Positions 10,764 to 27,719 of a DNA stretch of 27,804 nucleotides are shown here, one piece after another. The stretch spans positions 11,252-39,055 of the IMG/VR virus record IMGVR_UViG_3300030117_000581; one strand, written 5' to 3'. The notes under the pieces were generated by a model. That model was not told the DNA's origin. It did not search any database and saw only the letters and a program-made list of their open reading frames with translations. The translations under genes were made by a program, and so were the position numbers. Position 1 is the stretch's first letter, and each line of letters starts with the position of its first letter. The DNA comes from a virus.

Positions 10764-10780
10764 TTGTCGTAGTACGACAA
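10764..10780. promoter_or_regulatory. 17-bp palindrome upstream of the capsid gene
   Basis: TTGTCGTAGTACGACAA is a perfect inverted repeat with 8-bp arms and one central base. It lies in the 80-bp gap between the lipoprotein and capsid genes, 25 bp before the capsid ATG. It is one of seven related sites in the window. It is a candidate repressor operator or other regulator site; as RNA it could fold into a 7-bp hairpin with a 3-base loop. Confidence 0.7.
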
Positions 10781-10819
10781 AAACTAAAATAAATGTGGTG
10801 TTTCTGTTTATTTCTCAAG

Positions 10820-11092
10820 TCAGTTATCCATCGCAATGGGCTGAAAATCTTCTTCAACTTCGACATCCATCGAACCTGCATACCATCCTTCTGGTATGAG
10901 GACTTTACTAGCCGACAATTCCCAAGAACTGCCGTTCCAATAATAAACTTTTCCCTTAGTGTTAGGGCCTATTCTTATAAGCCCTTCACTTTCTGGGACG
11001 AATACTACTTTTGAACTTCCGCACCCTGTTACTCCAAGCATTACGAATACGCTTAGGAGGAGGAGGGGCATCTTTTCCAATAGTAGGTTCAT
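10820..11092 (-). CDS. Small phage lipoprotein, lysis-cassette type
   Basis: A 90-aa protein with a clear lipoprotein signal: hydrophobic residues 9-20 (PLLLLSVFVMLG) ending in the lipobox VTGC, with Cys24 as the lipid-modified residue. The mature 67 residues are soluble and include VFVPESEGLIRIG, KVYYWNGSSWELS and IPEGWYAGSM. The tail -PEGWY- recurs in small lipoproteins near phage lysis genes, as I remember them. It follows a holin-like gene and a 58-aa membrane peptide, and overlaps the latter by 107 bp in another frame, reminiscent of Rz1 inside Rz. It could be an outer-membrane spanin subunit, but it lacks the Pro-rich Rz1 composition. GGAG precedes the ATG by about 9 bases. Confidence 0.75.
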   Translation of the reverse strand: MNLLLEKMPLLLLSVFVMLGVTGCGSSKVVFVPESEGLIRIGPNTKGKVYYWNGSSWELSASKVLIPEGWYAGSMDVEVEEDFQPIAMDN

Positions 11093-11162
11093 TTGTTTTC
11101 TCCAAAATAGTAGGAAGTAGAGCCTTAAAAATAGACCCTAGTAAACTTGCTAAAAAAGACAT
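10986..11162 (-). CDS. 58-aa small membrane-associated protein
   Basis: A short open frame with a strong start: GAGG lies about 7 bases before the ATG, which overlaps the stop of the holin-like gene as TAATG. The product begins MSFLASLLGSIFKALLPTIL, a 20-residue hydrophobic or amphipathic helix. It continues with a short acidic linker, PPPPK and a strongly basic tail (RIRNAWSNRVRKFKSSIR). The last 107 bp overlap the lipoprotein gene in a different frame. Placement suggests a lysis role, either a second membrane permeabiliser or an inner-membrane partner for the lipoprotein. It is far shorter than a normal Rz. I do not recognise a family. Confidence 0.6.
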   Translation of the reverse strand: MSFLASLLGSIFKALLPTILEKTNEPTIGKDAPPPPKRIRNAWSNRVRKFKSSIRPRK

Positions 11163-11389
11163 TACGCTTCCTCTTCACAAGACTCCCACATGGCTTCTTC
11201 TTCTGCTTGCTTTTTCTTCACAGCAGTTCTTGAAGCACCATAACCAAGTGCTGCTAAAGCTGACATAGCCATTCCTAGCATTTGGCCGACAGAAGACTCC
11301 ATAGGGAAGGCACCTGACGCACATAATGCTCCGATTAACATGGCCGCACTTGACATCCAAAACTCTGTAGATTTGTATCCGGGTTTCAT
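11162..11389 (-). CDS. Holin-like small membrane protein
   Basis: A 75-aa protein starting MKPGYKSTEFWMSSAAML. There are two hydrophobic segments, roughly residues 11-28 and 33-51 (SVGQMLGMAMSALAALGYG), joined by a short turn, and a charged C-terminal tail (KKKQAEEEA). This layout and the KPGYKSTEFW start are typical of small two-segment phage holins. Its job would be to open the inner membrane at lysis, releasing or activating the lysozyme encoded near 18 kb. GAGGTG lies 7 bases before the ATG. It heads a three-gene cassette between scaffold and capsid genes, whereas T7 places its holin after the tail genes. Confidence 0.75.
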   Translation of the reverse strand: MKPGYKSTEFWMSSAAMLIGALCASGAFPMESSVGQMLGMAMSALAALGYGASRTAVKKKQAEEEAMWESCEEEA

Positions 11390-11398
11390 TTTTTCACC

Positions 11399-12196
11399 TC
11401 ATAAAATGTTGGAACTGGAAAGACGAGACTCTACATCTCTACGGTATGCAGGGTCTTTACGATAACGTGGATCCTTCATAGCCTCAGTAAGTTCTGCTAA
11501 AGAACGGAATGCTCCAGAGGCTCCTTTAGAACCTGTGTCTCCTTGAATAAGAGGACGAGCCATTCCAGCAGATTCTTTCCATCGGCTAGATAAATTTTTA
11601 ACAGCAAACAACATTTCTTCATTTGTTCCTTGCATAACGACATTATTAAATACATCTTGCTCTTGCTCAGTAAGTTCTGTAGAAGCCCATTCAATCATGG
11701 CATCGTAGTTCTCTTCTCCTCCTACAGTTCCGTATACAGAGTTCATGTGGACATTTAAAGAAGCCTGTTGCCCTTCAATATACTGGTCAATAAATTCACG
11801 AGGAATGTTGATTTGATTCGCAATCCTCTCCCTCGACTCTTCTGAAATCGTCCCAGTCTCCGAAAGCTCCGTCGTATATTCTTCATATCCCCCATTGAAA
11901 AAATTGGCATAGGATTCGGGAGTACTCTCTGGCTGTTCTTCAGTTTTCTCTTGGTCTTTTTTGGAATACGCTGATTGCAATTCCTGATAAGCCTTCGCCA
12001 ACTCCTCTGGACTTGTAAATTTCTCCGGTAGCCATTCGGGACGCTCTTCTGTCGTTTCATCGGTTACAGGTTCTACTCCTTCTTGTTCTTGAGGGGCATT
12101 TGTTTCTTCCATCATTGCAGCTTCTTGCTCTAATGTTGGATTTTCATTTGGGTCGTTTTTGACTACTTCAACTTTTTCGTAATTAGACACTTTCAT
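11399..12196 (-). CDS. Capsid assembly scaffolding protein (T7 gp9-like)
   Basis: A 265-aa, strongly acidic protein. The first 110 residues are dominated by Glu, Gln and Pro. A short motif ERPEWLPEKFTSPEELAKAY lies around residues 51-70, common in podovirus scaffolds. The C-terminus carries the family signature RSLAELTEAMKDPRYRKD followed by PAYRRDVESRL and SNIL, which in related phages contacts the capsid protein. It guides procapsid assembly and then leaves the shell. The ATG lies inside the last codons of the portal gene (14-bp overlap), so translation is probably coupled to portal. Length compares with T7 gp9 (307 aa). Confidence 0.93.
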   Translation of the reverse strand: MKVSNYEKVEVVKNDPNENPTLEQEAAMMEETNAPQEQEGVEPVTDETTEERPEWLPEKFTSPEELAKAYQELQSAYSKKDQEKTEEQPESTPESYANFFNGGYEEYTTELSETGTISEESRERIANQINIPREFIDQYIEGQQASLNVHMNSVYGTVGGEENYDAMIEWASTELTEQEQDVFNNVVMQGTNEEMLFAVKNLSSRWKESAGMARPLIQGDTGSKGASGAFRSLAELTEAMKDPRYRKDPAYRRDVESRLSSSNIL

Positions 12197-13730
12197 TCTC
12201 CATGTCTTGCTGTACTTGTCCTGCGACAGTACTTATGGCCTGTGGTGCAGCTTGTTGGGCCAGTCCCATCATTTGCTGTTGCTGCATCATACCTTGTATT
12301 TCTTCTTCTGTACGTACTAATCCTTCAGTATCTATTCCAAGAGCAGAAGCTCTCCTAGACATATACTCTCGAATATTTACATATTGACCCAATGCTTCGG
12401 GGCCTACTGTCTGAGCTATGCCTTGTAAATAAATATCAAGTTTAGATAAGTCGTTCCCTCTTCCTAACGCATCAATTCCTGTAATAATTGTAGGAGTTAC
12501 CTTATCTTTAGGAATCTTAGGGAGTTTCTTTTGTTTCTGCATCCTGTCAATAATTCTGTTTACCAAGGGTAATTGGAATTCCTGAGACAAGACACTATAT
12601 ATTCCACCTAATTGTCTCTCTATAGACTGGGTAACTAATCTTACTTCTTCGGCCGTAACTCGATCCGCATTACGAATAGATGCTTCTGTAAGGAGAAAGG
12701 CATACGATAAACGCTCGCTGATTGTCTGCATCGCTTGTAGCGTAATACTGAAATCTTGGGTTTTATCGACTTTGAGTACACTAACATCGGCAGCACTCCC
12801 TTCTCTGATACTTCCATTTGGAGATTCAGCAAGAGTCCTTGCTCTCGTTGTACCGTTTGGATTGACTAAGAATAACACTTTAGAAGCAGCAGCACTTCCT
12901 TCAACAATAGCTTTAGAAAGTCCCTCTAAACTTTGTAAGTCTCCGTAATACTGTTCTACATATCCTCTACCATAAGACTCCCCGTCTACTCTAAGCATTC
13001 TTAAAGCTATAAAAGGAGAACGGTTTTTCTCATATATAGTTCTAGTTTCTTCTAGTATGTGACCAAAGATTTCCTGTACAACTTCTACCTTCCCATTGGG
13101 CAATGTATGCTGCATGGTGAATATCTCACACGTATCGTCAAATTTAGATTTTTTAGCTTCAGCGTATTGTTGAGCGTATTCTGGCAGCATAGCCGGGGAC
13201 ACATTTTCTTTTATAATGATTACCCTCGCATTGCCCATAGGATCTCGTTTGCAGACAAATCGGTCGAGGTGTATTACTCTCATAGGGCCTTTTTCAGGTA
13301 AATACAATAAAGCATTACCAGTCACAACTAGATGTCGTAAGGCTTCAAAGGTTGAAACTCGGATATTATTAGACTCGATTTCTCTAGAAACGGATCGTTC
13401 GATATCAGAAAGAGATGACTCTACTTCTGTTTTTATTCTGGGGTCAATCCCATCCATCTTTCTCATTTCTCTCTCATCTAAAATAAGACGAAAGAAAGGA
13501 GCATTAGGAGGTAGCAAACTTAGTAATAAAGCAGAACTAAGGTTGTTAACAGCTCTTGCTCCTAAAGATTGGAAAGGAGTAGGAAATCTTTTATGTCCCG
13601 TGGTTGAATCGTCTGGCAGAATAGTAGGTATTGTAAGGGCTGAGGAATCTCTTCCACGATCTAAGTATGTCCTGCGTTCTGCCTCGCATTGGTTATACAT
13701 TCCTTTGATTGAAGCACCTTGATCTAGCAT
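12183..13730 (-). CDS. Portal / head-tail connector protein (T7 gp8-like)
   Basis: A 515-aa protein matching T7 gp8 in size (536 aa) and pattern. Near the N-terminus are CEAERRTYLDRGRDSSALTI, then FPTPFQSLGARAVNNLSSAL and LLSLLPPNAPFFRLIL. The middle has VVTGNALLYLPEKG and SYGRGYVEQYYGDLQSLE. The C-terminal part has NADRVTAEEVRLVTQSIERQ, followed by a Gln/Met-rich tail that is usual for these portals. It forms the dodecameric ring through which DNA is packaged and ejected. I see no good ribosome binding site immediately before the ATG, so translation may be coupled to the upstream Pro-rich gene, whose stop overlaps it. Confidence 0.96.
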   Translation of the reverse strand: MLDQGASIKGMYNQCEAERRTYLDRGRDSSALTIPTILPDDSTTGHKRFPTPFQSLGARAVNNLSSALLLSLLPPNAPFFRLILDEREMRKMDGIDPRIKTEVESSLSDIERSVSREIESNNIRVSTFEALRHLVVTGNALLYLPEKGPMRVIHLDRFVCKRDPMGNARVIIIKENVSPAMLPEYAQQYAEAKKSKFDDTCEIFTMQHTLPNGKVEVVQEIFGHILEETRTIYEKNRSPFIALRMLRVDGESYGRGYVEQYYGDLQSLEGLSKAIVEGSAAASKVLFLVNPNGTTRARTLAESPNGSIREGSAADVSVLKVDKTQDFSITLQAMQTISERLSYAFLLTEASIRNADRVTAEEVRLVTQSIERQLGGIYSVLSQEFQLPLVNRIIDRMQKQKKLPKIPKDKVTPTIITGIDALGRGNDLSKLDIYLQGIAQTVGPEALGQYVNIREYMSRRASALGIDTEGLVRTEEEIQGMMQQQQMMGLAQQAAPQAISTVAGQVQQDMENESV

Positions 13731-13990
13731 TAATAATTAACGGGGCTACCGCTACCTCCGGGAGGGTTCACAGGCCCTCGTGCGATTGTAAATAAAGATT
13801 TGCCCATTTTCATTGCTTGTCTTCTTTTCTTAGCTTTTGATACAGGACGTGCTTGTAATTTTTTCTCTTCCGGTATTTGTGAGATAACTGGAGGAGGAGC
13901 TAATATTCTTTGAGGAGGAGGAGCTGGAGGTGCTACAGGCTCGGGGGGCGGTGGCGGTGGAGCCGCAGCTCTCGGGGATCTCATACACAT
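13730..13990 (-). CDS. Proline-rich small protein before portal
   Basis: An 86-aa protein starting MCMRSPRAAAPPPPPPEPVA. The first 35 residues are mostly Pro and Ala; the middle is basic (KAKKRRQAMKMGKS) and the end Gly/Pro-rich. Small Met-Cys-starting, polyproline proteins occur directly before the portal gene in many podoviruses and are usually left as hypothetical structural proteins. A good AGGAG lies 7 bases before the ATG, and its start and stop each overlap a neighbour by 1 bp. That supports it as a real gene in the virion operon. Function is unknown. Confidence 0.7.
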   Translation of the reverse strand: MCMRSPRAAAPPPPPPEPVAPPAPPPQRILAPPPVISQIPEEKKLQARPVSKAKKRRQAMKMGKSLFTIARGPVNPPGGSGSPVNY

Positions 13991-14178
13991 TATTTAACTC
14001 CTTTTATAATTTCTTGTTGCTCGTTGTACTTAGAATTTAAAAAACGTACAACAGCTCTTTGTCCGGCGTAAAACCAAACTTTCTTTTCTTCCCAGTCTAA
14101 ATCAGCACATCTTTCTGGAAAATTAATGTTTAACTGCTTGATTAAATCCTCGGGAACGGTTGGGTATGCTTCTTCCAT
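13990..14178 (-). CDS. Hypothetical protein, 62 aa
   Basis: A small soluble protein beginning MEEAYPTVPEDLIKQLNINF, with a likely helical segment YAGQRAVVRFLNSKYNEQQE. AAGGAG precedes the ATG by about 7 bases, and the stop overlaps the ATG of the Pro-rich protein. Reading-frame packing and the strong start signal support it. It may be one of the short conserved proteins found between exonuclease and portal genes in T7-like phages. I do not recognise the family. Confidence 0.6.
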   Translation of the reverse strand: MEEAYPTVPEDLIKQLNINFPERCADLDWEEKKVWFYAGQRAVVRFLNSKYNEQQEIIKGVK

Positions 14179-14183
14179 TGTTT

Positions 14184-14528
14184 TTACTCCTTATAGTAAT
14201 CCTTTTCATTTTGGGCATAAGCCAAAAACAGCACGCTGTAGTTAATAAGATCCACGATTGTGTCCTCAAGAGCCTCATCTTTTGTTTTATATGTACCATT
14301 TGTGACAAAAGTAGCAAGCCTAGAAAACTTGTCAGTCATTCTTACTAAAAACCCAGTTTTTGTATCTGTAATTCCCATTGATTCTACTCTAGAAAAATTA
14401 AGAAACGGATTAGATTTGTCGGCTCCTCCGCTGTAATCGTGGTTTTTTGCTTTCATAAGTTCTACTGCTTTGTGCGTAAGCTCATCGTGAAACGCTAAAA
14501 GCTCATCTCTTGTCATTGTGGATCCCAT
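14184..14528 (-). CDS. DUF1599 / Nmad1-like protein
   Basis: A 114-aa protein with the pattern of DUF1599, also described as nucleotide-modification-associated domain 1: a helical start (AVELMKAKNHDYSGGADKSN), then FLNFSRVESMGI, GFLVRMTDKFSRLATFV and EALEDTIVDLINYSVLFLAY. The arrangement of acidic and Lys residues (KNHDYSG, MTDKFSRL, DTIVDLINY) recalls all-alpha NTP-pyrophosphatase-like proteins. A role in nucleotide metabolism is plausible but unproven. GAGG lies 7 bases before the first ATG; a second ATG four codons in is possible. The gene overlaps the exonuclease by 16 bp, placing it at the end of the replication block. Confidence 0.75.
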   Translation of the reverse strand: MGSTMTRDELLAFHDELTHKAVELMKAKNHDYSGGADKSNPFLNFSRVESMGITDTKTGFLVRMTDKFSRLATFVTNGTYKTKDEALEDTIVDLINYSVLFLAYAQNEKDYYKE

Positions 14529-15259: not shown

Positions 15260-15455
15260 CGGGGGATGCTCCTGACTGCAAAGCTACTTCTCCAAGTCTT
15301 ACAAGACCTAAACAAGAATGATAAGAACCAGAGAAAGAAACAACTAAATCTTCTGTTTCATTGGTACGACTAGAAGCAGCTATGAAAATCATTTCATCAA
15401 ATCTTTTCTGTAGCTCTTTCACTAATTTTTCTGTAGGAATAAAGTCAACACTCAA
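15240..15455 (-). CDS. Hypothetical protein, 71 aa (TTG start)
   Basis: A small protein read from a TTG (TTG AGT GTT GAC) with GGGAG 8 bases upstream; the start overlaps the stop of the LAGLIDADG gene by 4 bp. It has a charged helix (TEKLVKELQKRFDEMIFIAA) and a beta-like section (DLVVSFSGSYHSCLGLVRLG). It overlaps the exonuclease start by 20 bp. Packing and start signals support it as a gene. I see no recognised motif. Confidence 0.55.
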   Translation of the reverse strand: MSVDFIPTEKLVKELQKRFDEMIFIAASSRTNETEDLVVSFSGSYHSCLGLVRLGEVALQSGASPDENYTD

Positions 15456-15913
15456 TTTAAAATCTCCCTTTGTCCATTTAACATATCCTTTAAAGTTTTT
15501 CTCATATCTGATTTAGCAGGGTAGTTCATAATAGCTTCTAATATATTTGCTTGGAATTTTTTAGTAGAAAGATAAGGTATTAACTCTCTGCATAAATTCT
15601 TAGCCTTTGTACCAGAGACTTGCCATCGGTACACAGTTTTCCCAGTAGAAGTTTTTCTACTTACTTCGTGTACCGAGCCGTTTGCAATCTCACAACATTT
15701 ATCAACCATAGATTTAGAAACACTTTCTACTACTATTGCTGGAGAAGTTGTGTAACGTAAGTGACCCTCTCCATCAATAATCCCAGCAACCCAAGCAAGA
15801 TCAATGAGTCTCTGCCCAGTTTCTTCCGACTTTATATTCTCCGTCGAGCGGGCAGTTGAGGGAGAGATTTTCCCCCGCATCACGCATCGACTGTACTGTA
15901 ATCCTTCCGACAT
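15452..15913 (-). CDS. LAGLIDADG-type homing endonuclease
   Basis: The frame encodes 153 aa with one LAGLIDADG motif, LAWVAGIIDGEGHLRYTT (about residues 39-56), where the acidic residue of DGEG would bind metal. A single-motif protein of this length would act as a homodimer. The ATG at 15913 has AAGGAG 10 bases upstream, so it begins inside the last 113 bp of the DNA polymerase gene, in a different frame. The first 35 residues are therefore overprinted on the polymerase C-terminus and may not be conserved; a later ATG at codon 12 is possible. The gene stands free, not in an intron or intein, since the polymerase is intact. Confidence 0.8.
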   Translation of the reverse strand: MSEGLQYSRCVMRGKISPSTARSTENIKSEETGQRLIDLAWVAGIIDGEGHLRYTTSPAIVVESVSKSMVDKCCEIANGSVHEVSRKTSTGKTVYRWQVSGTKAKNLCRELIPYLSTKKFQANILEAIMNYPAKSDMRKTLKDMLNGQREILN

Positions 15914-17615
15914 TATCCGCTAACTCCTTGCGTACTTGTAATTGAACTTCGTCATGAACGTGAGCAACCATAATCACATCTTCTTTCGAGTATCCATGTT
16001 CCCTAAACTTTCTGTGCATTAGACAAGTAGCCTCCTTCATAGCAATGCTACCACAAGATTGTAACAAAGTATTAAGAGCAGAATGTTTTGAGCGTATTTT
16101 TAATCTCCTACCATCAACAGCTTTTAAGTAATCTCTATGATCTAAAGCTGCTTTTACACCGTCTTGAACTCTTTTAAGTGCTGGCATATTTCTAAGAAAT
16201 CTTTCTCTTAACTCAGCACCTTCAGACATTCCTCCTCCAACAATAGCTCCTAACTTCTGATTGCCAGCCCCATAACATAAAGCATATATAAGAACTTTAG
16301 CCATGTTTCTGTCAGGCAAGTCAGCAGCCTCTTGGTTTGCAGAATGAATATCACCATTTAAAATCGCATCTCTGTATTTACCATTGTCATGTGGGAAGGT
16401 GTAATGAGCCAAAGCTCTTAACTCGAGTCCCGACATATCTGCCCCAACCATGCAAAATCCTTCAGGAGCGTAAAATAATTCCCTACAAGTCTTCCCGTAT
16501 AGTGCGTTTACCCTAGGAACTTGAGACATATTAGGCCTTCGATGAGTGCATCTTGTGGTCACAGCTCCACATGGATTGACTTGACCGTGGATTCTTCCAT
16601 CTACTTCTAACTTTAACCAAGCCTCTGTGCCGTCGCTCAACATCCCTAGTCTTTTAATAATAGTTAGGTATTTGGAAAGAAGTTTTGCTTCGGGATAATC
16701 AAGTTTACCGAGTACGGACTCATCGACTTTAGGTCTACCTTCACCTGTATAGTCTTCTGGCTCCCATCCGTACTTTTCAATAAAGAAATTGGCGATTTGA
16801 AGCCTACTTGCTGGGTTAAAGTTTGTAACTTTTTTTCTAAGCGGGCCGTCTTTGAGTCTCGATTTTGTTTTGGCATCTGGTGCATCCCCTTTTAATTTAT
16901 ACTTGTTTCCTGTTTCAGGATCAAGAAAATACTCACAAGTTTTCATAGGAACAATCTTTGGTGGTATGTTGTCAACCAATTCTTCATACAATTCATTCTT
17001 TAAAGCTAGTAGTTCAGCATGAAAAGTCCTAGCTTTTTCTACGTCGAAAGCGATTCCGTCTAGCTCTTGTTGTTTTATTATTGCCGAGAACTCGTGTTCC
17101 CGTTTGGACGGGTTTTCAGGAAGGTTCTCCTTCTGGATCTTCTCCCAAAGAGCCTTGGTAACTTTTACATCCTGTACACAATACTCTCCCATTTCTTCTG
17201 TGTATTCAGAGAAATCATTTGTATCTGAGAATTCTCCCTTGAGTATTCCAAGACGATATCCCCAAGATTTAAGTGAGTGTCTCCCCATAAGATTTCTAGG
17301 AAAATCTATAATTGAGTAATCGTCCTGAATAATGTCAGGCCATAAAACTCTAGATAAAATTAAAGTATCTAATACTTCTCCTTTAAATTCCCAATCAGGG
17401 TGCAAACGTTTTATAGCTCTCAAGTCAAAGTCTTGGATGTTGTGTCCCACAATAACATCTGCCTCTGACAAAATCTTTAACGCTTCGTCAACAGGGACTA
17501 ACTTTGGATCTTCATCTGGAGTAGCCAAAGCTATGCAATGAATAGTTTTTAGTCCCAACAACGTGTTAAAGTTTTTTATATCGTTAGTCTCTATGTCAAA
17601 TATAATCACGGCCAT
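15801..17615 (-). CDS. Family A DNA polymerase (T7 gp5-like)
   Basis: A 604-aa polymerase with both domains. Proofreading exonuclease: Exo I FDIETND (Asp7, Glu9), Exo II VGHNIQDFDL (Asp64), Exo III YCVQDV (Asp149). Polymerase: motif A VGADMSGLELRALAHY (Asp393), motif B NMAKVLIYALCYGAG (Lys440, Tyr444, Tyr448), motif C VAHVHDEVQ (Asp555, Glu556). It ends EYKVGRNWAETH, a normal T7-type C-terminus. It is 100 residues shorter than T7 gp5 and probably lacks the large thioredoxin-binding loop. The start overlaps the sigma-like gene by 20 bp, and the 3' end is overlapped by the LAGLIDADG gene. Confidence 0.97.
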   Translation of the reverse strand: MAVIIFDIETNDIKNFNTLLGLKTIHCIALATPDEDPKLVPVDEALKILSEADVIVGHNIQDFDLRAIKRLHPDWEFKGEVLDTLILSRVLWPDIIQDDYSIIDFPRNLMGRHSLKSWGYRLGILKGEFSDTNDFSEYTEEMGEYCVQDVKVTKALWEKIQKENLPENPSKREHEFSAIIKQQELDGIAFDVEKARTFHAELLALKNELYEELVDNIPPKIVPMKTCEYFLDPETGNKYKLKGDAPDAKTKSRLKDGPLRKKVTNFNPASRLQIANFFIEKYGWEPEDYTGEGRPKVDESVLGKLDYPEAKLLSKYLTIIKRLGMLSDGTEAWLKLEVDGRIHGQVNPCGAVTTRCTHRRPNMSQVPRVNALYGKTCRELFYAPEGFCMVGADMSGLELRALAHYTFPHDNGKYRDAILNGDIHSANQEAADLPDRNMAKVLIYALCYGAGNQKLGAIVGGGMSEGAELRERFLRNMPALKRVQDGVKAALDHRDYLKAVDGRRLKIRSKHSALNTLLQSCGSIAMKEATCLMHRKFREHGYSKEDVIMVAHVHDEVQLQVRKELADNVGRITVQSMRDAGENLSLNCPLDGEYKVGRNWAETH

Positions 17616-17964
17616 TGTTCATTAGTGCCTTTCTAGTACCCTTTAAATACTCTTTAACTAAAGGGTCTTTTCCTAACCGCTCCCTTAACTTTGCCAAAGC
17701 CTTTCTTTCTATTTGTTGGACTCGCTCTGCGGAAATAGCTCTGTCCTCAAACTCTGCAAAGTATTCTCCAATAGTCCTATAAGGAACCGGCTTGCCTTTG
17801 TAACGCATCAGAAACTTTTTTCCAGTAGCGATCTGTTGACTGTCTTCGATTTCCTCTTGGGCCTCCATTAAAAATTCTTGCCTTATCCTCTCTTGTTCCA
17901 TCTGGGCAATATCTGCTCCAGTAACTACAGATGACTTTTTCGGCGTATCTGGGTTTTCGGACAT
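17596..17964 (-). CDS. Small sigma-70 region-4-like DNA-binding protein
   Basis: A 122-aa protein. Residues 1-50 are charged and rich in Glu and Gln. Residues 64-95 resemble sigma-70 region 4.2: RTIGEYFAEF, then ISAERVQQIERKALAKLRER, close to the usual -RERIRQIE-KAL-KLR- recognition helix. The turn between the helices is about five residues longer than usual. No region 2 is present, so it is not a complete sigma factor; it could redirect host RNA polymerase or act as a simple regulator. The ATG has AGGAG at 9 bases but lies 188 bp inside the lysozyme gene, in another frame. Later starts (for example 17808) have weaker signals. Confidence 0.68.
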   Translation of the reverse strand: MSENPDTPKKSSVVTGADIAQMEQERIRQEFLMEAQEEIEDSQQIATGKKFLMRYKGKPVPYRTIGEYFAEFEDRAISAERVQQIERKALAKLRERLGKDPLVKEYLKGTRKALMNNGRDYI

Positions 17965-18121: not shown

Positions 18122-18122
18122 C

Positions 18123-20692: not shown

Positions 20693-20701
20693 GTGAACCT
20701 C

Positions 20702-23116
20702 CTAGTTCCAATAATATAATGAGTCTCTTACCCTCGTTAAATCTAAAGTTCCCATCTCCGGCAACGAAGGTAAACTAACGCCGGAGGGGAGAGTACATTC
20801 AATTTGTGTTGCAAAATCAGCAAGAACATCATACTCGAAAATGCTGATTGTTGCCTCCCGTATACAAGAGGCCATTAAAGAACAGTAAGCACTATGTGTA
20901 GACATAGTATCGTGGGTAGATGTTATGTCTTTGATTCCTCTGTTTGTACACATAACAACACTTTCACCTAGTAATCCACCCAGTCCGTCCAACGAATGAA
21001 TCCAGTTTGGGCATACTGAGTTTACAGTCTTTCTTCTGTTTGGTCTTCCGTTAGGCATGCGAAGCCTGTGTTGTCGCATCACTCCGTTGACTAAAGTTTT
21101 AACTGCGTAACGATCAGTACTTTCGTAGTGCATCGACACAGGAAACCCAAGAGGAGTAATCCAACGAACTGGGACTTCATTGTCTACGCAAATCCCTGCA
21201 ACTTCTCTTAACCAATCCATACATCTTCTGGCTGATCCTACTACTTCTCCAATAGATTCCCAAACTATAGTTGCAAGATAAGAGCATGGTTGATACGTTG
21301 AATCACCAAAAGGATTTTCTTTTCCTGACTTCACTAAATCATAAAACCATTCAGTTACATACTCTTTACAAGAATAATAAGTTGAACCGTAACACAATGT
21401 CATGGTACTTCTTTTTGTCGTACTACGACTTATTCCAAACTCAAGCCATTTCTTACCAATGTCGTCACCCTTTTCGTACAGTTTCTTTCGAACAATGTCA
21501 GCAACTTGTTGGTACACATCATTTGGTAACTCATTGGGAATAACATTTGTAGCTACTGCGGATGTGTAGTCTCTAAGAATAATGCTATAAAGTTGTAGAC
21601 CTTGAGTTGTAGCGTCCATTCCTATAGGTAACGTAGAATTAAACGAAGACCCTGTATTGTGGAAATCGTTTATCTCCATGCAAGCAGCGAGAAATCCCCA
21701 AGGTTCATCCGCTTTAGCCCATGTCATATCAGACAAAGGATCTCTACCTATGTTTCTTATCAGCGAAATATTATCTTCGACCCATTTAATCCTTTCATCG
21801 TAGTTCGACTTAGACATGCCCCACTTGTTCGCAGCATTTATGAGTAACCACTTTACTCCTGATTCGTCTTTGCATTCGTTTACTGGCACACCTCTGTTGA
21901 ACCAAAGCAACGAGCGACTCCAATCAGGGCCTTGAGGTTGTAGGAAATACGGACGTGGATACACACGGGATCTAAAGTCCAGCGACAAAGGAAAAAATAT
22001 TTTTTGGTTTAAAAATTTATTGGAAAGGTTTAATACTTTTAAAACTTGCAACCTCTTTGACTTTATTCGTTCGTTGTCAAAGTGAGTTCGAGCAGCCGAT
22101 TTTCTCCATTGTCTTCTTGCTTCCTCGTCCTCCCCAATGTTTGCAGGTTTAGGAGGAATAGGAGTATCTTCCATTGGAGGTAGTCCTCCTATTGGAAGTC
22201 CTCTGTTTCGACAATGTTTAAGAACATCGACCATCCTTCCGTTTACTTTGTATGCCGTAGATTGCAGCGAATTAACCGCACTATAAACGGAGGGCATCTT
22301 GGCGAGTGATAGTGTTTCCATGTGACTCTCGTCATACAGCTTGACAAGAGGACGGCGATGTCTTTCCATGCCCCTGTAACCACCGATGAACACATTGTTC
22401 CACTCTACAGGCTTCTGTACCATAGGAAGCCAGACAGGATTTAAATATTCGTTGTACTCGTGAGATTTTTTTATCCAAGTCAATAACTCAGAAGTAGGTT
22501 TAATAATCGTGTATGACTTTCCTGCCTGATTCGTTCTTGTCATAATATCTATAATCGCTGTGGACTGTCTTAGTAACTCTATACAAGTTAATCCAACTGA
22601 TGCAGCTTCTTTACGAGACCATTTAGGCATAATTATCTGGTGGTACTGCATGGATCTGTTTATAAACTTAGATTTATTTGTGTATGACTGATACCGATCG
22701 AGTACTCGGTGCATTTGTTGCCATAAAGATGGGTGATCGCTTTGTAATTCACGAAAACGTATTTCATCTTCGATCATTCGACCCACTACACTAGCCGCAC
22801 TCATAATTTTTCGTTCTACGCTTATTGAATCGAGTACTGACTTTGCTGTTATACCTGCACAGACTTCAGGAGGAAGGATTGATAAAAACTCATACGCTCT
22901 ATGTCTTTTCCCCGGAGCTTTTTCTGCTTTCTTAAGCCAATCAGTAAGAGCTTGAGCCATTTCAGTTATAGAATGAGCAAGCAATCTCTGTCCCACAGAT
23001 GTTGTAGATTCTAACTTTGTTTCCGCTGCTCTTTTTACTTTGTGCAAGTAACGCTGACGGCCAAGCTCGATCATCTCTTGTTCTAAATTTTCTTGTTGAT
23101 TTTTATGTTCAGTCAT
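20702..23116 (-). CDS. T7-type single-subunit DNA-directed RNA polymerase
   Basis: An 804-aa polymerase from the ATG at 23116 (AGGG just upstream; a TTG four codons earlier is possible). Conserved blocks: FRSRVYPRP; motif A LPIGMDATTQGLQLYS (catalytic Asp501); motif B SRSTTKRSTMTLCYGS (Arg564, Lys568, Tyr576); motif C THDTMSTH (His735, Asp736), preceded by NWIHSLDGLGG. It would transcribe the middle and late genes from phage-specific promoters. It is about 80 residues shorter than T7 gp1. The gene follows the integrase after a 37-bp gap that holds a copy of the 17-bp palindrome, and its motif B coding sequence contains another near-copy. Confidence 0.97.
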   Translation of the reverse strand: MTEHKNQQENLEQEMIELGRQRYLHKVKRAAETKLESTTSVGQRLLAHSITEMAQALTDWLKKAEKAPGKRHRAYEFLSILPPEVCAGITAKSVLDSISVERKIMSAASVVGRMIEDEIRFRELQSDHPSLWQQMHRVLDRYQSYTNKSKFINRSMQYHQIIMPKWSRKEAASVGLTCIELLRQSTAIIDIMTRTNQAGKSYTIIKPTSELLTWIKKSHEYNEYLNPVWLPMVQKPVEWNNVFIGGYRGMERHRRPLVKLYDESHMETLSLAKMPSVYSAVNSLQSTAYKVNGRMVDVLKHCRNRGLPIGGLPPMEDTPIPPKPANIGEDEEARRQWRKSAARTHFDNERIKSKRLQVLKVLNLSNKFLNQKIFFPLSLDFRSRVYPRPYFLQPQGPDWSRSLLWFNRGVPVNECKDESGVKWLLINAANKWGMSKSNYDERIKWVEDNISLIRNIGRDPLSDMTWAKADEPWGFLAACMEINDFHNTGSSFNSTLPIGMDATTQGLQLYSIILRDYTSAVATNVIPNELPNDVYQQVADIVRKKLYEKGDDIGKKWLEFGISRSTTKRSTMTLCYGSTYYSCKEYVTEWFYDLVKSGKENPFGDSTYQPCSYLATIVWESIGEVVGSARRCMDWLREVAGICVDNEVPVRWITPLGFPVSMHYESTDRYAVKTLVNGVMRQHRLRMPNGRPNRRKTVNSVCPNWIHSLDGLGGLLGESVVMCTNRGIKDITSTHDTMSTHSAYCSLMASCIREATISIFEYDVLADFATQIECTLPSGVSLPSLPEMGTLDLTRVRDSLYYWN
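21415..21431. promoter_or_regulatory. Near-copy of the 17-bp palindrome inside the RNA polymerase gene
   Basis: TTGTCGTACTACGACTT keeps a perfect 13-bp core (GTCGTACTACGAC) and loses only the outer two bases of one arm. It encodes part of the conserved SRSTTKRS motif, so chance or coding constraint is a fair alternative to regulation. Confidence 0.35.
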
Positions 23117-23136
23117 AATCCCTACCAATGTGTGTA

Positions 23137-23153
23137 ATGTCGTACTGCGACAA
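23137..23153. promoter_or_regulatory. 17-bp palindrome between integrase and RNA polymerase
   Basis: ATGTCGTACTGCGACAA abuts the integrase stop and lies about 20 bp before the RNA polymerase ATG. It differs from the consensus by one internal base and one end base, and is identical to the copy at 24345-24361. A bound protein here could block transcription into the RNA polymerase gene, a natural switch point between lysogeny and lytic growth. Confidence 0.65.
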
Positions 23154-24155
23154 TTATTTCGACTCTAAAACTTTTATTGCACTCTTTAAATTACTCGGAG
23201 CTAAGTGTGCATAACCCAAAGTAGTTCTTAAATCTTTATGCCCTGCCAGTTCTTTTACTTCGTTAATTGGAACTCCACCCTGCACTAACCTTGAACAGAA
23301 AGTATGCCTACAAGTGTGTAGCATCCTTGGAAAATTTCTATTCGTCATTCGTTTAAAACGGTCTACCTTAGAGTCCCAGTAAATTGTCGATAAGTTAAAA
23401 GGAGTTTCTAATTCTTTATTGCTCTTTAACTTTTTAAATATTCTTTTTACCCTGCTAGTCATAGGGATCGAGCGAACAAGTCCTGTTTTAATTTTATCTG
23501 GATCTTTCAAGTGAATGACTGACTCGTCAAAGTCCACGCAATCCCAAGTAAGACTTGCCGCTTCGCCTCGACGCATCCCAGTATCAATTAAGACTGTAAA
23601 GAAATCCTCAAACTCTTCATCGTCAGTTGTCTGGATAAGTCCTATGATTTCTTTTTCTTGTTCCTTTGTGTAGTACTCATTCCTAGCTATTGGTTCCTTC
23701 TGATTAGGGAACACAGGCTTCGTAGATATAATCCCATGCTTTTTCGCATGACCAAGTATCTTAGAAATGATTGCACCTTTTCTGTTAATAGTAGCGGGAG
23801 AATTCCCTTGCAATCTTAAGTCCAATGCGTACTTCTCTAAATCAGATGTAGTTATATCTTTTATAAGTGTTTCTTCACCGAAGTAATCCACTACATTTAC
23901 AAGTCTGTTAAAAGTATGATCTGCTGATTTTTGTTGCGACCAAATTAAATCGTACACACGGTAGCCCATACCCCCAACACTAACTGGGTCACGAATCTCT
24001 TTTGCTTTCTTAGGGCTTCGTCCTTCCATTAAATCTATTCTAACCTCTAATTCATATTTTTGTGCATCAATTAAAGATTGGAAAGAACGACGTACTCTTT
24101 TGCCGTTGCAAGTTACATCTACTTGCCATGAATTGTTTCTTCTTGATATTGCCAT
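23154..24155 (-). CDS. int: Tyrosine recombinase / phage integrase
   Basis: A 333-aa integrase from the ATG at 24155. An N-terminal arm-binding-like part (RRNNSWQVDVTCNGKRVRRS) is followed by a SAM-like core-binding region (LVNVVDYFGEE, DLEKYALDLRLQGNSPATIN). The catalytic domain has Arg195 in DTGMRRGEAASLTW, a Lys near KTGLVRSIPM, His280 and Arg283 in HTCRHTFCSRL, His306 in LAGHKDLRTTLGY and the nucleophile Tyr315. All active-site residues are present. It would insert the phage genome into the host chromosome. A frame extension upstream to a TTG is unlikely. The leader carries a terminator-like hairpin. Such integrases sit next to the RNA polymerase gene in temperate T7-like marine phages. 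Confidence 0.96.
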   Translation of the reverse strand: MAISRRNNSWQVDVTCNGKRVRRSFQSLIDAQKYELEVRIDLMEGRSPKKAKEIRDPVSVGGMGYRVYDLIWSQQKSADHTFNRLVNVVDYFGEETLIKDITTSDLEKYALDLRLQGNSPATINRKGAIISKILGHAKKHGIISTKPVFPNQKEPIARNEYYTKEQEKEIIGLIQTTDDEEFEDFFTVLIDTGMRRGEAASLTWDCVDFDESVIHLKDPDKIKTGLVRSIPMTSRVKRIFKKLKSNKELETPFNLSTIYWDSKVDRFKRMTNRNFPRMLHTCRHTFCSRLVQGGVPINEVKELAGHKDLRTTLGYAHLAPSNLKSAIKVLESK

Positions 24156-24167
24156 TGTTGTCTCTAT

Positions 24168-24230
24168 AAAAAAAGTAAGACAGGCCAAAACTTAATATAG
24201 GTCATCTAGATTTACATGACCTGCCTTACT
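24168..24230 (-). terminator. Terminator/attenuator-like structure in the integrase leader
   Basis: On the minus strand AGTAAGGCAGG (24220-24230) pairs with CCTGTCTTACT (24174-24184), 11 bp with one G-T pair, and is followed by a run of seven Ts ending 13 bases before the integrase ATG. A second hairpin, AGGTCAT (24216-24222) with ATGACCT (24199-24205), sits inside the loop and shares three bases with the outer stem, so the two partly compete. It could end the early transcript or make integrase expression conditional. Confidence 0.7.
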
Positions 24231-24245
24231 GGAGGTAGCTATGAA

Positions 24246-24330
24246 GGGCTAGACTCTTGAAAGATCCTCGGAGGAAACACTCCTCACTTTTAGGAAAAGC
24301 ACGTTTAATTCACTCCCAAAAGCCTAGCCC
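24246..24330. other. Structured intergenic element bounded by GGGCTAG/CTAGCCC
   Basis: This 85-bp stretch between the DUF932-like gene and the integrase is closed by a perfect 7-bp inverted repeat. Inside are a 5-bp hairpin (GAGGA, 5-base loop, TCCTC) and a CTTTT-AGG-AAAAG hairpin. Length and closing stem recall a class II tRNA, but there is no T-loop or usable anticodon arm. It could be part of the attachment site or integrase-arm region. Confidence 0.4.
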
Positions 24331-24344
24331 GTTGTTGGTGCCAA

Positions 24345-24361
24345 ATGTCGTACTGCGACAA
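24345..24361. promoter_or_regulatory. 17-bp palindrome at the 3' end of the DUF932-like gene
   Basis: ATGTCGTACTGCGACAA directly follows the TAA stop of the DUF932-like gene, about 190 bp before the integrase start. It is the exact twin of the site at 23137-23153. Confidence 0.65.
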
Positions 24362-25267
24362 TTAAAAAGTAGTCGCAAGTTGAGTAGACTTGTCCTCAGC
24401 CTCCTCAGAATAAAACCTTTGGTCAATAATCTTAGTAAGATTGGACATCTTCTGTCCCTGATCAAACAAAGAACGACCACGACCAAAGCTGGTGAACGCA
24501 TTTTCTAGCGACCACACATTGTCTTCTTTGAATTCAACATGCTCAGGATTGTTGAAATGCTCAAGCACGTCAAGAACATGAGCCTTTGCAATTACTCCAT
24601 TCTTAACAGCTTCGATAATAAGAAACCGAGCATCATCCTGAGTGCATTCAGTTTCTTTGTACTTGTTCATGCGAGTGACCTCAAGCTCCGCACATTGCTG
24701 AACATTAGCGATCATGTTTTTAAGTAAATCGTCTACTGGTGTAAACTCTCCCATATTAGACGGATCTACTCCTTTGGTGTGCTTTCTCCTGAAAGAATAA
24801 TCAGCATTAAACATACCGTTACTACATACCTGAACACGTTTGCCGAATAGTCCTCCCAATGCAATAGACATATCGCAAGACTGAACCAAAGCCATCTCCC
24901 AAGAAATACCTGCTACATCTGGTAAAATATCCTTGTGTGTAATACCAAACATAGTAAGAAACCGACCATACTTAGGTAAGTCTGGTATTCTTTTCTTAGC
25001 ACTCTCCCTAGAAAGCCCGACATAATTTACGCTGTCGCTTACTCGGAAGCCTGAAGATTCCAAAGCATTCTCAGCCATGCCAACGAATTGATCGTGAGGA
25101 ATAGGTCGCCAATCACTTGGACCAAGTTTGGGGACAGAAAGATCCTTCAGTCTTTCACGATCCCATACTTCTCCCCAGTTACCTCCATCGAAAGGAACTG
25201 GAGCTTTGGGTCTACTTGCCTCTACGTATGCAGGAACTGCCTGCTGTCCTAATGTATTTGTAACCAT
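24362..25267 (-). CDS. DUF932-like phage/plasmid protein
   Basis: From the ATG at 25267 (GGAG 9 bases upstream) this encodes 301 aa. The pattern WEMALVQSCDMSIALGG, RVQVCSNGMF, then RRKHTKG resembles DUF932 proteins of phages and plasmids, whose conserved core has a -VCSN- motif. Residues 190-230 hold VTRMNKYKETECTQDDARFL and IIEAVKNGVIA, likely helical. The function of the family is not established; members often sit near early or anti-defence genes. The start overlaps the end of the preceding 68-aa gene, and the stop runs straight into the palindrome. Last gene before the integrase. Confidence 0.7.
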   Translation of the reverse strand: MVTNTLGQQAVPAYVEASRPKAPVPFDGGNWGEVWDRERLKDLSVPKLGPSDWRPIPHDQFVGMAENALESSGFRVSDSVNYVGLSRESAKKRIPDLPKYGRFLTMFGITHKDILPDVAGISWEMALVQSCDMSIALGGLFGKRVQVCSNGMFNADYSFRRKHTKGVDPSNMGEFTPVDDLLKNMIANVQQCAELEVTRMNKYKETECTQDDARFLIIEAVKNGVIAKAHVLDVLEHFNNPEHVEFKEDNVWSLENAFTSFGRGRSLFDQGQKMSNLTKIIDQRFYSEEAEDKSTQLATTF

Positions 25268-25268
25268 G

Positions 25269-25475
25269 TTAAAAGTCTCCAAGTTTGTATGATTCTATAT
25301 AAGAATCAGGGTTACGTAAAATATCCATGAGCCATTCACGCTCTGCCTCACAGAGTAAATCTTCTTCTTCGTCCTTAAGTAATATCGCTCCTGCGTATGT
25401 CAACGCCATTTTTTTATTCTTAGCTTTTAAGAACGAATCTACAATCTTAAGTTTGTTAGTCCAGAAAAATCTCAA
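25269..25475 (-). CDS. Hypothetical protein, 68 aa (TTG start)
   Basis: Read from a TTG directly after the preceding stop, with AAGGAGGT 10 bases upstream, a strong signal for an otherwise weak codon. The product is charged, with helices such as KIVDSFLKAKNKKMALTYAG and acidic DEEEDLLCEAEREWLMDILR. An internal ATG (Met23) is a less likely start. No family recognised; it belongs to the early gene cluster. Confidence 0.6.
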   Translation of the reverse strand: MRFFWTNKLKIVDSFLKAKNKKMALTYAGAILLKDEEEDLLCEAEREWLMDILRNPDSYIESYKLGDF

Positions 25476-25745
25476 TTAGTCTGTACCTCCTTCCGCTAAC
25501 TTTAGCTCGTCGTGGTAAACCGCTTTGGAATACCCAAACATTGTGGGCAACTCCAAGGTTGACCCGTACCTATGGAAAATATCGGTGAACAAATCTTGTA
25601 ACAATTCTTGGTCAGTCATGTTGACATCAGCATTAACCATTGACCTGTACATGTTCAGTATCTGTTCTCCTTTCTTAGAATATGACAATACATTCCTCTG
25701 ATTGATCTCTGAAAAATATTCAGCATGTTGCAGTCGCTCGTTCAT
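25476..25745 (-). CDS. Hypothetical protein, 89 aa
   Basis: The ATG at 25745 has AAGGAG 7 bases upstream and lies 26 bp inside the 3' end of the Cys-rich gene. The product starts MNERLQHAEYFSEINQRNVL and looks all-helical and soluble, with an acidic middle (MTDQELLQDLFTDIFHRYG). The same frame stays open further upstream inside the Cys-rich gene, but that part is probably shadow. No recognised domain. Confidence 0.6.
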   Translation of the reverse strand: MNERLQHAEYFSEINQRNVLSYSKKGEQILNMYRSMVNADVNMTDQELLQDLFTDIFHRYGSTLELPTMFGYSKAVYHDELKLAEGGTD

Positions 25746-26505
25746 TGGCTGTCTCCTTGACAGTAAGAGAAGTGAAGTGCTTCGCACCTGATCCGTGGAC
25801 TTGTTCCACAATATTAGGTATCTTAGCAGAACGATCACGAAACGCCCCTGCACACAAGCGACAGTCATAACAAGTAGTTTTCCTGCCCATAGTTTTAGAA
25901 GCAGGACAAACAATCTCATCTGGCTGTAATGTATTTAAGTCGTCCGTGACTCGAAATGTGCGATAACCCATGTCATTAGCCCGTTGCTTTTGATCAAGAG
26001 TTTCAACACTAGCCATACAATAATCGGATAAATTGTCGTAGTCCGACAAGTTCTCCCATTGATGTGTGTAGCCCATATGCCCCTTTGACTTGTGGAGCAA
26101 ACGATCCCACACTTCCTTGTTAATCATTGCAGGATCACCATACGATCCCAAACGAATAACACGATCTCTTCCCAGCGACTCAAGAGAAGTAGCTTTTGGA
26201 TACCCTCCTTCGCTGTACTTCTTCCAAATAGCATTGTGTGATCTCATGTTCACATAGCAAGTCCTAGTGCCATCAGGCTGAGGACGATGAGGACACTCAC
26301 CACAAATGCCAGACTCCGAGCGATTCTTAATAGCCTCGCTAGGCTTCTCGTTCTTGAGTTGAATTGTAACTTGTATTACATTCGCACCTGTTTTGATGTT
26401 GTGAGACGGAGTACGGAACCCAGTACCAACAGCAAAAATCTCAGTAGAATTGTCGTACTCCGACAACTGCTCGTGCAATACATAACCATTGTGTTTTAAA
26501 TACAT
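25720..26505 (-). CDS. Conserved Cys-rich phage protein, function unknown
   Basis: From the ATG at 26505 (GGAGG 5 bases upstream, leader of about 16 bases from the promoter) this encodes 261 aa. Cysteines cluster in ICGECPHR, TCYVN and, near the end, CPASKTMGRKTTCYDCRLC. Between them are RLGSYGDPAMINKEVW, GYTHQW, YCMASVETLDQKQRANDMGY and RTFRVTDD. I remember this pattern from proteins of unknown function in many phages and proteobacteria. The Cys groups suggest a bound metal or iron-sulphur cluster. It is the first gene after its own promoter, so it should be expressed very early. Two palindromes of the 17-bp family lie inside it, both encoding LS(E/D)YDN. Confidence 0.75.
   Translation of the reverse strand: MYLKHNGYVLHEQLSEYDNSTEIFAVGTGFRTPSHNIKTGANVIQVTIQLKNEKPSEAIKNRSESGICGECPHRPQPDGTRTCYVNMRSHNAIWKKYSEGGYPKATSLESLGRDRVIRLGSYGDPAMINKEVWDRLLHKSKGHMGYTHQWENLSDYDNLSDYCMASVETLDQKQRANDMGYRTFRVTDDLNTLQPDEIVCPASKTMGRKTTCYDCRLCAGAFRDRSAKIPNIVEQVHGSGAKHFTSLTVKETANERATATC
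26033..26049. promoter_or_regulatory. 17-bp palindrome variant inside the Cys-rich gene (distal)
   Basis: TTGTCGTAGTCCGACAA matches the consensus with one arm mismatch. It is intragenic and in the same codon phase as the site at 26450, both encoding LS(D/E)YDN, so peptide-level constraint is possible. Confidence 0.45.
26450..26466. promoter_or_regulatory. 17-bp palindrome variant inside the Cys-rich gene (proximal)
   Basis: TTGTCGTACTCCGACAA, one arm mismatch, lies about 55-70 bp downstream of the predicted transcription start. It would suit a roadblock operator for the promoter at 26528-26555, in the same relative position as the palindrome below the other promoter. Confidence 0.55.
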
Positions 26506-26527
26506 ATCTACCTCCATGTCAATGTAT

Positions 26528-26555
26528 ATTGTACCAGAAACTGAGGGACAGTCAA
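26528..26555 (-). promoter_or_regulatory. Host sigma-70-type promoter for the Cys-rich gene
   Basis: On the minus strand the -35 box TTGACT and the -10 box TACAAT are 16 bp apart, with the predicted start near 26521. The spacer CCCTCAGTTT-TGGTA is almost the same as in the promoter at 27687-27714. The -35 box lies between GGGAC and GTCCC, an inverted repeat that could be an operator. A strong terminator lies directly upstream. Confidence 0.85.
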
Positions 26556-26562
26556 GTCCCAC

Positions 26563-26610
26563 AAAAAACGTGAGGAGCCGAGATTTAGTTTTGGTGACTC
26601 GACTCCCCAC
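26563..26610 (-). terminator. Intrinsic terminator before the second early promoter
   Basis: On the minus strand GTGGGGAGTCGAG pairs with CTCGGCTCCTCAC over 13 bp (two G-T pairs) around a 15-base loop, followed by G and six Ts. It lies just after the 121-aa gene and isolates the upstream unit from the promoter that follows within 10 bases. Confidence 0.9.
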
Positions 26611-26621
26611 GCCAACATGGG

Positions 26622-26987
26622 TCAACTTGGATTGAATTTCTCTAAGTATTCACAAAAGTAAGAATCAACAACACCTTCGCAATCCTCAGAGAATGTCTCT
26701 GGTGATTCTAACAGCAAAGTATGGCACTCGGACATCATCTCGTCCATATTTTTAAATACGGCTGACTCGATACCACAAGCTATTTCTACTGAGTCTTCTC
26801 GTTTGATTATGTCAAACTTAAGTCCGAACTGGGAAAGAAAAGTCATAGCTTTCTCCCGTCCTTCCTCGTTCTGCTCATTTATAACTCGACCCAAACAATG
26901 AGCAGCGACCCGAGCGGACAAGGCATTCATTAGGCTTTCCGCTAGTAACCTGTTTATTGCTTCTGCAAATTTTTCACCTTTACTCAT
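26622..26987 (-). CDS. Hypothetical protein, 121 aa
   Basis: The ATG overlaps the stop of the Api92-like gene (ATGA), so the two are translationally coupled; GGGG lies upstream. The product starts MSKGEKFAEAINRLLAESLM and is predominantly helical, with a Cys-containing acidic C-terminus (SEDCEGVVDSYFCEYLEKFN). I see no membrane segment or known motif. It is the last gene of the first early unit, ending 12 bp before a strong terminator. Confidence 0.6.
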   Translation of the reverse strand: MSKGEKFAEAINRLLAESLMNALSARVAAHCLGRVINEQNEEGREKAMTFLSQFGLKFDIIKREDSVEIACGIESAVFKNMDEMMSECHTLLLESPETFSEDCEGVVDSYFCEYLEKFNPS

Positions 26988-27451
26988 TGTAAATACCCCG
27001 CAATCTCACAACCCGACTCACGGTAAAACCAAGTCATCGAAGCATAATCATCAAGTATCTCTCTAACTTTATTATGCACTCCTTCAGGTGGATTCCATGG
27101 TGTATCGAATGACATGGAAATATTAAGTTCATCATTATCTGAAAAATAAATATCAGAGCGATCCCATTTCACACCCCAGTTGTCATATCGCCAATGATAC
27201 CAGTCATAATCTTCACCATTCTCTAAAACATACTCAGGTAGTCTGTCTTTTACTTCTACTATTTTATGCTTAGGCTCTGGAACTATAATCTTAAAGCTGA
27301 ACCAGTTATCCTCCTCCTTCCAGTTCCCTTGGCATTTTTCGTTACGTTCTTCCAATGGAATATTAATAGCTTTCCTGATTCGCAGTCGTTCTTCCATAGG
27401 ACAGTCTCTATGAAAAGAAATATCTACTTCGTTTATGCACCAATTAGCCAT
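26984..27451 (-). CDS. Api92/DUF1281-like protein
   Basis: A 155-aa protein with features of the Api92-like/DUF1281 (YubB ferredoxin-like) family: MANWCINEVDI at the start, then WYHWRYDNWGVKWDRSDI, and near the end MSFDTPWNPPEGV. The WY-WR--NWG-KWD and PW-PP blocks are the hallmark. These proteins are common on phages and plasmids, and their function is not established. GAGGTG precedes the ATG, which overlaps the stop of the upstream 55-aa gene. It belongs to the first early transcription unit. Confidence 0.75.
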   Translation of the reverse strand: MANWCINEVDISFHRDCPMEERLRIRKAINIPLEERNEKCQGNWKEEDNWFSFKIIVPEPKHKIVEVKDRLPEYVLENGEDYDWYHWRYDNWGVKWDRSDIYFSDNDELNISMSFDTPWNPPEGVHNKVREILDDYASMTWFYRESGCEIAGYLQ

Positions 27452-27611
27452 TGGACACCTCCTCAGTCATCATAGAATTAACTGATTCTTGTAGTTCTTT
27501 CAGTAAATCGTTTTTGACTTTTTCTTTCTCTAACAGAGAAGTTTCCATATCAATGATTGAGCATTGTACCGAACCTAGTAGTTCGATAATTACATTAACT
27601 GGACGTTTCAT
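27444..27611 (-). CDS. Hypothetical protein, 55 aa, first gene of the early unit
   Basis: A short frame starting MKRPVNVIIELLGSVQCSII, with GGA about 7 bases before the ATG; an ATG two codons earlier is possible but sits too close to the binding site. The second half is a charged helix (LLEKEKVKNDLLKELQESVN) that may form a coiled coil. Its stop overlaps the ATG of the Api92-like gene. It is the first gene after the promoter at 27687 and the palindrome at 27627, so it should be among the earliest proteins made. No family recognised. Confidence 0.6.
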   Translation of the reverse strand: MKRPVNVIIELLGSVQCSIIDMETSLLEKEKVKNDLLKELQESVNSMMTEEVSNG

Positions 27612-27626
27612 ACCCATGTCCTTTCT

Positions 27627-27643
27627 TTGTCGTACTACGACAA
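27627..27643. promoter_or_regulatory. 17-bp palindrome in the leader of the first early unit
   Basis: TTGTCGTACTACGACAA is a perfect palindrome lying between the promoter and the first gene, about 40 bp downstream of the predicted start and 16 bp before the ATG at 27611. Here it has the strongest case as an operator that blocks elongation or initiation. Confidence 0.72.
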
Positions 27644-27686
27644 TTTAATTAGAAAAGCCAGAGTAACGCTACCCTGACTTAGGTAT

Positions 27687-27714: not shown

Positions 27715-27719
27715 CCCTC

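Follow-up and report, generated by a model that had tools for sequence, protein, structure and literature searches.

We analysed a 27,804-nucleotide window of a 39,055-bp virus record (IMGVR_UViG_3300030117_000581, here G000; the window is its bases 11252-39055), in which a 17-bp palindrome occurs in dispersed copies among the genes of a T7-like phage. The palindrome system proved to be genuine and clade-wide, every comparative sign indicates that it is functional, and its best explanation, to which we assign a probability of about 0.62, is that the palindromes are the dispersed operators of a phage-encoded repressor or roadblock protein. This reading builds on the observed sites, their counterparts throughout the clade, their recoding in place, the exclusion of the phage RNA polymerase as their reader, the covariation of a right-end gene with the palindrome in relatives, and a recurrent layout of promoter, site, and start codon.

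The window was searched for TTGTCGTA-N-TACGACAA with up to three mismatches allowed. Seven matches were found (two exact, two with one mismatch, and three with two; Table 1), against a mean of 0.15 and a maximum of 2 in dinucleotide shuffles, none of the 100 reaching seven. All the copies listed in a preliminary description of this DNA were present, and the family survived the shuffling which that description had named as a possible refutation. Correct, too, was its placing of four copies in the first early leader (27627) and before the integrase (24345), RNA polymerase (23137), and capsid (10764) genes. The remaining 11 kb of G000 added two sites near the opposite genome end, TTGTCGGACTACGACAA at G000:749-765 and the perfect variant TTGTCGCAATGCGACAA at G000:494-510, bringing the total to nine. 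All the G000 genes are on the minus strand; in coding coordinates (27805 minus the window coordinate), the sites lie at 162, 1339, 1756, 3444, 4652, 6374, 17025, 38291, and 38546. The palindromes form the strongest repeat family of the G000 genome, in which no other of comparable quality was found. The copies at 23137 and 24345 are identical across 21 bp (window 23136-23156 and 24344-24364). Three of the window's sites (21415, 26033, and 26450) are in coding sequences, the last of them probably some 13 codons into its gene. The in-gene sites 26033-26049 and 26450-26466 share a reading frame and both encode LS[DE]YDN; the site at G000:749-765 also reads LS[DE]YDN, within a doubtful open reading frame (ORF).

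Relatives about 97% identical to G000 retain the sites they cover: L009 has those in the RNA polymerase leader and within the RNA polymerase gene, and L012, L013, L015, and L017 have the one in the capsid leader. A scan of viral contigs with the exact motif returned solely such relatives and unrelated matches. We then compared a wider clade of uncultivated T7-like phages, whose contigs were collected by using RNA polymerase alignments as queries. Where the sequence is long enough, most members have a 16- to 18-bp palindrome family of their own, present in many phages in about 5 to 19 copies. The words differ between lineages: AGTCTAAG-N-CTTAGACT in L024, TTTATAGA-S-TCTATAAA in L025, TGTCTAGR-N-YCTAGACA in G001 and others, GGTCTAGA-S-TCTAGACC in L104, L107, and L145, TTCTAGGATCCTAGAA in G030, TCCGGGGASTCCCCGGA in G010, ATCTGGGTATCCCCAGAT in L023, and GGTGCAGTSACTGCACC in L062. 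With the exception of one very GC-rich contig, shuffles of equal base composition gave much smaller families than the real sequences. No family was found in some members, e.g., L159, L161, and L169, or in any of the ten T7-like isolates examined, which include LUZ100 and three pelagiphages. G010, which is syntenic with G000 and has an RNA polymerase 57% identical to that of G000, carries its palindromes in both the capsid and the first early leaders and close to the DUF932-integrase junction.

Most telling as to the reader of the palindromes is the pair L024 and L025. Their RNA polymerases are 99% identical, yet their palindromes are unrelated: where gene junctions correspond, the flanking bases are conserved to as much as 100%, with 73 of 74 or 67 of 68 shared in two examples, but the palindromes themselves agree at 6 to 8 of 17 positions, which is the level of chance. 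The mean flank identity of 84% is less telling, as a gap-tolerant aligner yields 72% on unrelated stretches, so it is the single junctions that carry the argument. Compared gene by gene, the early and replication genes of the two phages are mostly 77 to 100% identical. Only one gene sits at a shared place in the two phages without showing any similarity, namely the right-end gene, located near palindromes; a few small L024 ORFs have no match in L025, and the one of 123 amino acids is apparently missing from L025 along with its site.

In the relatives, the right-end gene usually lies between two palindromes, and its fast-diverging products can be aligned for eight of them. A partial Mantel test over nine phages showed that the half-site distance follows the similarity of the right-end proteins when the RNA polymerase is held constant (partial rank r=-0.63, p=0.0026); over 12 phages, the result was r=-0.53 (p=0.003), and the polymerase had no effect on the half-site (p=0.90). 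None of the right-end proteins tested (those of L102, L024, L025, and G000) matched Pfam or PHROG, and DUF3102 was rejected as the family of the regulators, L062 alone matching it, below the cut-off. The AlphaFold model of the relatives' protein has an all-helical core with a mean predicted local distance difference test (pLDDT) score of 81, exceeding 90 for the greater part of residues 50-180, and shows a helix-turn-helix (HTH)-like pair at residues 96-106 and 111-127 and a long C-terminal helix. A fold search with this model gave no significant match in the PDB and a single one in BFVD, an uncharacterised viral protein. In G000, the gene lies outside the window. It is encoded on the minus strand, with its start at G000:458, which is 35 nt past the perfect site 494-510, and the contig ends before the gene does, leaving 152 residues. 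The left end of G000 opens with a terminator-like hairpin (L010:1-470), and the contig break falls within the right-end gene (window end 27804); such an arrangement would be expected of two ends that join at this point. The right-end gene of G017 (L126, L180) is similarly made up, and the sole palindrome family there is GC-rich and restricted to the vicinity of that gene; G017 is possibly a member with weak or lost sites.

The position of the sites follows a common unit, in which a host sigma70 promoter is followed after 30 to 50 bp by the palindrome and then by a Shine-Dalgarno sequence and a start codon. A Shine-Dalgarno sequence with a start codon was found within 60 nt after 86 of 165 sites, mostly 10 to 25 nt away, compared with about 20% of random positions and 13 of 165 on the antisense side of the same sites. 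A strong sigma70-like promoter lies within 100 bp upstream of 26 of 74 sites in seven genomes, where 4 to 7% would be expected. At most of the matched promoters, the site is 30 to 72 bp from the -10 element, usually 30 to 50 bp, and 68 to 72 bp at SSB. Two of the G000 sites trail strong promoters, at 43 and 61 bp, and TTGCAT-16-TATAAT was read by eye upstream of the one at coding 38546. Not all the sites belong to such units, others being located within operons or genes. The units precede early genes and those of RNA polymerase, SSB, primase, and DNA polymerase, and the capsid gene is preceded by a palindrome in G000 and G010. This set of early, polymerase, replication, and capsid genes suggests the targets that a silencer of lytic growth would need.

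We infer direct binding by the right-end protein, repression rather than activation, a roadblock, and a role in immunity. The palindromes would be double-stranded DNA operators of this one regulator, dispersed about 30 to 70 bp downstream of host sigma70 promoters and right before the Shine-Dalgarno sequences of early, polymerase, replication, and capsid genes. The bound regulator would most likely halt the host RNA polymerase in the leader, in the manner of a stoperator, and such a roadblock would silence the lytic genes. The silencing would in turn give immunity to phages with the same palindrome, and regulator and operators would change specificity together.

Several points weigh against this proposal. 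Some of the sites are within genes. The model of the relatives' right-end protein matches no PDB fold, so that its predicted DNA binding rests on the HTH-like helix pattern. The half-sites in the Mantel tests were assigned by hand, and 3 of the 12 regulators were assigned by position only. The G000 protein itself is likewise assigned by position only, since neither the regulator alignment nor the G010 protein shows detectable similarity to it and its own model is poor (pLDDT of 51) and unusable; a scan of viral contigs found no relatives of it. Finally, the close spacing to the Shine-Dalgarno sequence would also fit translational control, though compactness of the gaps could explain it.

The last point bears on an RNA element, i.e., a leader hairpin that the right-end protein would read as RNA to control translation or processing. 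The sites, being downstream of promoters, are transcribed, most of them lie 10 to 25 nt before a start codon, and hairpins of 6 to 8 bp could form. A functional RNA stem should, however, tolerate G.U better than A.C pairs, and the departures from symmetry over 13 families, 26 G.U and 35 A.C, show no such wobble bias. In the absence of strand-specific pairing, recognition of double-stranded DNA is the likelier. Asymmetric palindrome centres occur in both orientations, and the stem sequence is constant within a genome, though an RNA stem could vary with compensation. We consider this alternative, raised in the preliminary description as a hairpin or processing element, to be unlikely. The left-right asymmetry of the G000 sites (8 versus 3 departures), which could be read as an RNA loop, was not seen again in the relatives.

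It is also improbable, in our estimate, that the same regulator and sites serve a purpose other than repression, such as activation or antitermination at early promoters or partition or a nucleoid role in a plasmid-like prophage. The dispersal of the sites and the all-helical make-up of the protein, with its long C-terminal helix, do recall plasmid regulators, most of the relatives lack an integrase, and one relative, L062 (L195), is the entire 40,302-bp contig NZ_LIOL01000017.1 of the bacterial genome of Chelatococcus sambhunathii DSM 18167. The phage on this contig is complete and T7-like; it encodes a MarR protein and an integrase and has 24 palindromes across 40 kb. The contig may possibly be a circular episome; no overlap was found between its ends. 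On the other hand, no ParA-like partner came up, though no search was aimed at one, and activation is less compatible than a roadblock with the fixed place 30 to 50 bp downstream of the promoter.

Classical lysogeny operators of a MarR-type repressor encoded beside an integrase, as proposed for LUZ100-like temperate relatives of T7, are very unlikely. G000 has an integrase, and L062 combines all three elements, but a MarR repressor was not matched by any of the G000 genes tested, those of the window included, and L062 is the only relative with one. No such site family exists in LUZ100, Pasto, or RHEph21, all of which carry an integrase alongside an HTH or MarR gene. A tyrosine integrase was found in 7 of 30 records only, so the palindrome system is not bound to integration, and the simple link to lysogeny which the preliminary description had drawn from the integrase does not hold for most relatives with the system. 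In G001, a single site lies between the DUF932-like gene and the RNA polymerase gene, with no integrase there; the G000 integrase occupies the same interval, flanked by the two identical 21-bp site copies, and has the look of a cassette that was acquired between two duplicates of a site.

Promoters of the phage RNA polymerase, finally, are refuted at the level of the family and deserve next to no credence: although the sites precede the RNA polymerase and capsid genes, as do the phage promoters of LUZ100, and the preliminary description had suggested a site related to the polymerase, their specificity does not follow that enzyme either in L024 and L025 or in the partial Mantel test, no conserved sequence resembling a T7-type start region was found downstream of them, the mapped LUZ100 promoters are not palindromic, and in the complete genome G001 (127-bp end overlap) the sites are confined to the stretch from the right end to SSB, which would leave its late genes without promoters.

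The preferred reading, that of dispersed operators, was then set against known systems. The likeness to lambda-type operators that had been noted holds for the geometry, a 17-bp imperfect palindrome with one central base being common to both, but not for the placement: lambda-type operators overlap the promoters they repress, whereas the palindromes lie in leaders downstream of the promoters and, for most of those matched, start 30 to 72 bp beyond the -10 element. The operators of the P1 C1 repressor are likewise dispersed sites of a single repressor but are asymmetric. The stem-loop cassettes at T4 early promoters are units of promoter and palindrome before early genes, as here; we know of no phage-specific reader for them, unlike for the present sites, which have a candidate.

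The L5-type stoperators of Cluster A mycobacteriophages are dispersed, with an autoregulatory site upstream of the repressor gene and further ones downstream; their motif divergence tracks that of the repressor, with the motifs of related phages remaining similar, and the sites are 13 bp long, asymmetric, in one orientation, and bound by a monomeric repressor (PMC6550527, PMC9283540). The palindromes resemble them in being numerous and dispersed, many in short intergenic gaps, in having a site near the candidate regulator gene, and in diverging with the regulator. They differ in being 16- to 18-bp palindromes with asymmetric centres in both orientations, in being able to change completely between near-identical genomes, and in that the right-end proteins match no family, L5 gp71 homology included. 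KorB of plasmid RK2, a ParB-type CTPase clamp working with KorA, is a global repressor whose symmetric operators are dispersed, some away from promoters (PMC11790492). The palindromes are dispersed and symmetric too, but lie downstream of promoters, and the phage protein matches no ParB family in Pfam and no PDB fold. The start-associated sequences (SAS) of Cluster K mycobacteriophages and their extended form (ESAS) are repeats that immediately precede the start codons of certain genes, and their consensus varies between subclusters; ESAS consists of two 17-bp inverted repeats and a spacer, beside the 13-bp SAS, and its reader is not known (PMC3203893). Common to both systems are the place just before start codons and a word differing between lineages; here, however, there is a single palindrome, no second repeat family was found, and there is a candidate reader. 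For LUZ100 and other temperate T7-like phages with MarR and an integrase, an interplay of repressor and polymerase has been proposed (PMC10134795). The T7-like gene order and the control points before the RNA polymerase and capsid genes are shared, but those of LUZ100 hold non-palindromic phage promoters. In sum, the system behaves like dispersed repressor operators, yet by the tests of membership it belongs to no known family.

Table 1. Palindromic sites, promoters, and neighbouring genes in the window (window coordinates)
Feature	Position	Strand	Remarks
Palindrome TTGTCGTACTACGACAA, perfect	27627..27643	.	First early leader; 9 nt (agaaaggac) before ATG; sigma70 promoter 43 bp upstream
Site, 1 mismatch	26450..26466	.	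5' part of DUF7227-like gene; 61 bp downstream of second promoter
Site, 1 mismatch	26033..26049	.	Within DUF7227-like gene, reading frame as for site 26450
Site, 2 mismatches	24345..24361	.	Abuts stop codon of DUF932-like gene; upstream of integrase
Site, 2 mismatches	23137..23153	.	Abuts integrase stop codon; in RNA polymerase leader
Degenerate site, 2 mismatches	21415..21431	.	Within RNA polymerase gene
Palindrome TTGTCGTAGTACGACAA, perfect	10764..10780	.	Capsid leader; position occupied in G010 by that phage's own palindrome
Sigma70-type promoter TTGACA-16-TAGAAT, first early unit	27687..27714	-	Coding 91-118
Second sigma70-type promoter TTGACT-16-TACAAT	26528..26555	-	Coding 1250-1277; near-copy of first
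DUF932-like early gene	24362..25282	-	Weak match, E=0.0019
Tyrosine integrase	23154..24188	-	
T7-type RNA polymerase	20702..23128	-	Rejected as palindrome reader
Major capsid protein	9612..10739	-	

The two early promoter regions (26524-26563 and 27683-27722) are 83% identical over 40 bp and have the TCCCTCAGTTT spacer in common. Elsewhere in the window, a small protein encoded at 17596-17964 on the minus strand weakly matches the sigma-factor family phrog_351 (E=3e-4, profile positions 685-745) and has a homologue in a syntenic relative; it could be a regulator of the region-4 type, in a phage that also encodes an RNA polymerase. An ORF at 15452-15913 on the minus strand, overlapping the 3' end of the DNA polymerase gene, contains LAWVAGIIDGEGHL, which by its look may be a LAGLIDADG homing endonuclease motif.

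T7-like phages are the textbook lytic phages, long assumed to be strictly lytic and repressor-free. We put forward tentatively, at slightly worse than even odds, that a new, very fast-diversifying family of DNA-binding proteins and its genome-wide palindromic operators make up immunity types in these phages, the type changing by replacement of the regulator and in-place recoding of about a dozen dispersed sites. It is a puzzle how these sites and a single gene could have shifted in concert, as seen between L024 and L025. If the operator reading is true, it would provide a function for a group of proteins without family assignment and orthogonal protein-operator pairs for synthetic biology, and many uncultivated relatives of T7 could be silenced and could exclude phages of the same type.

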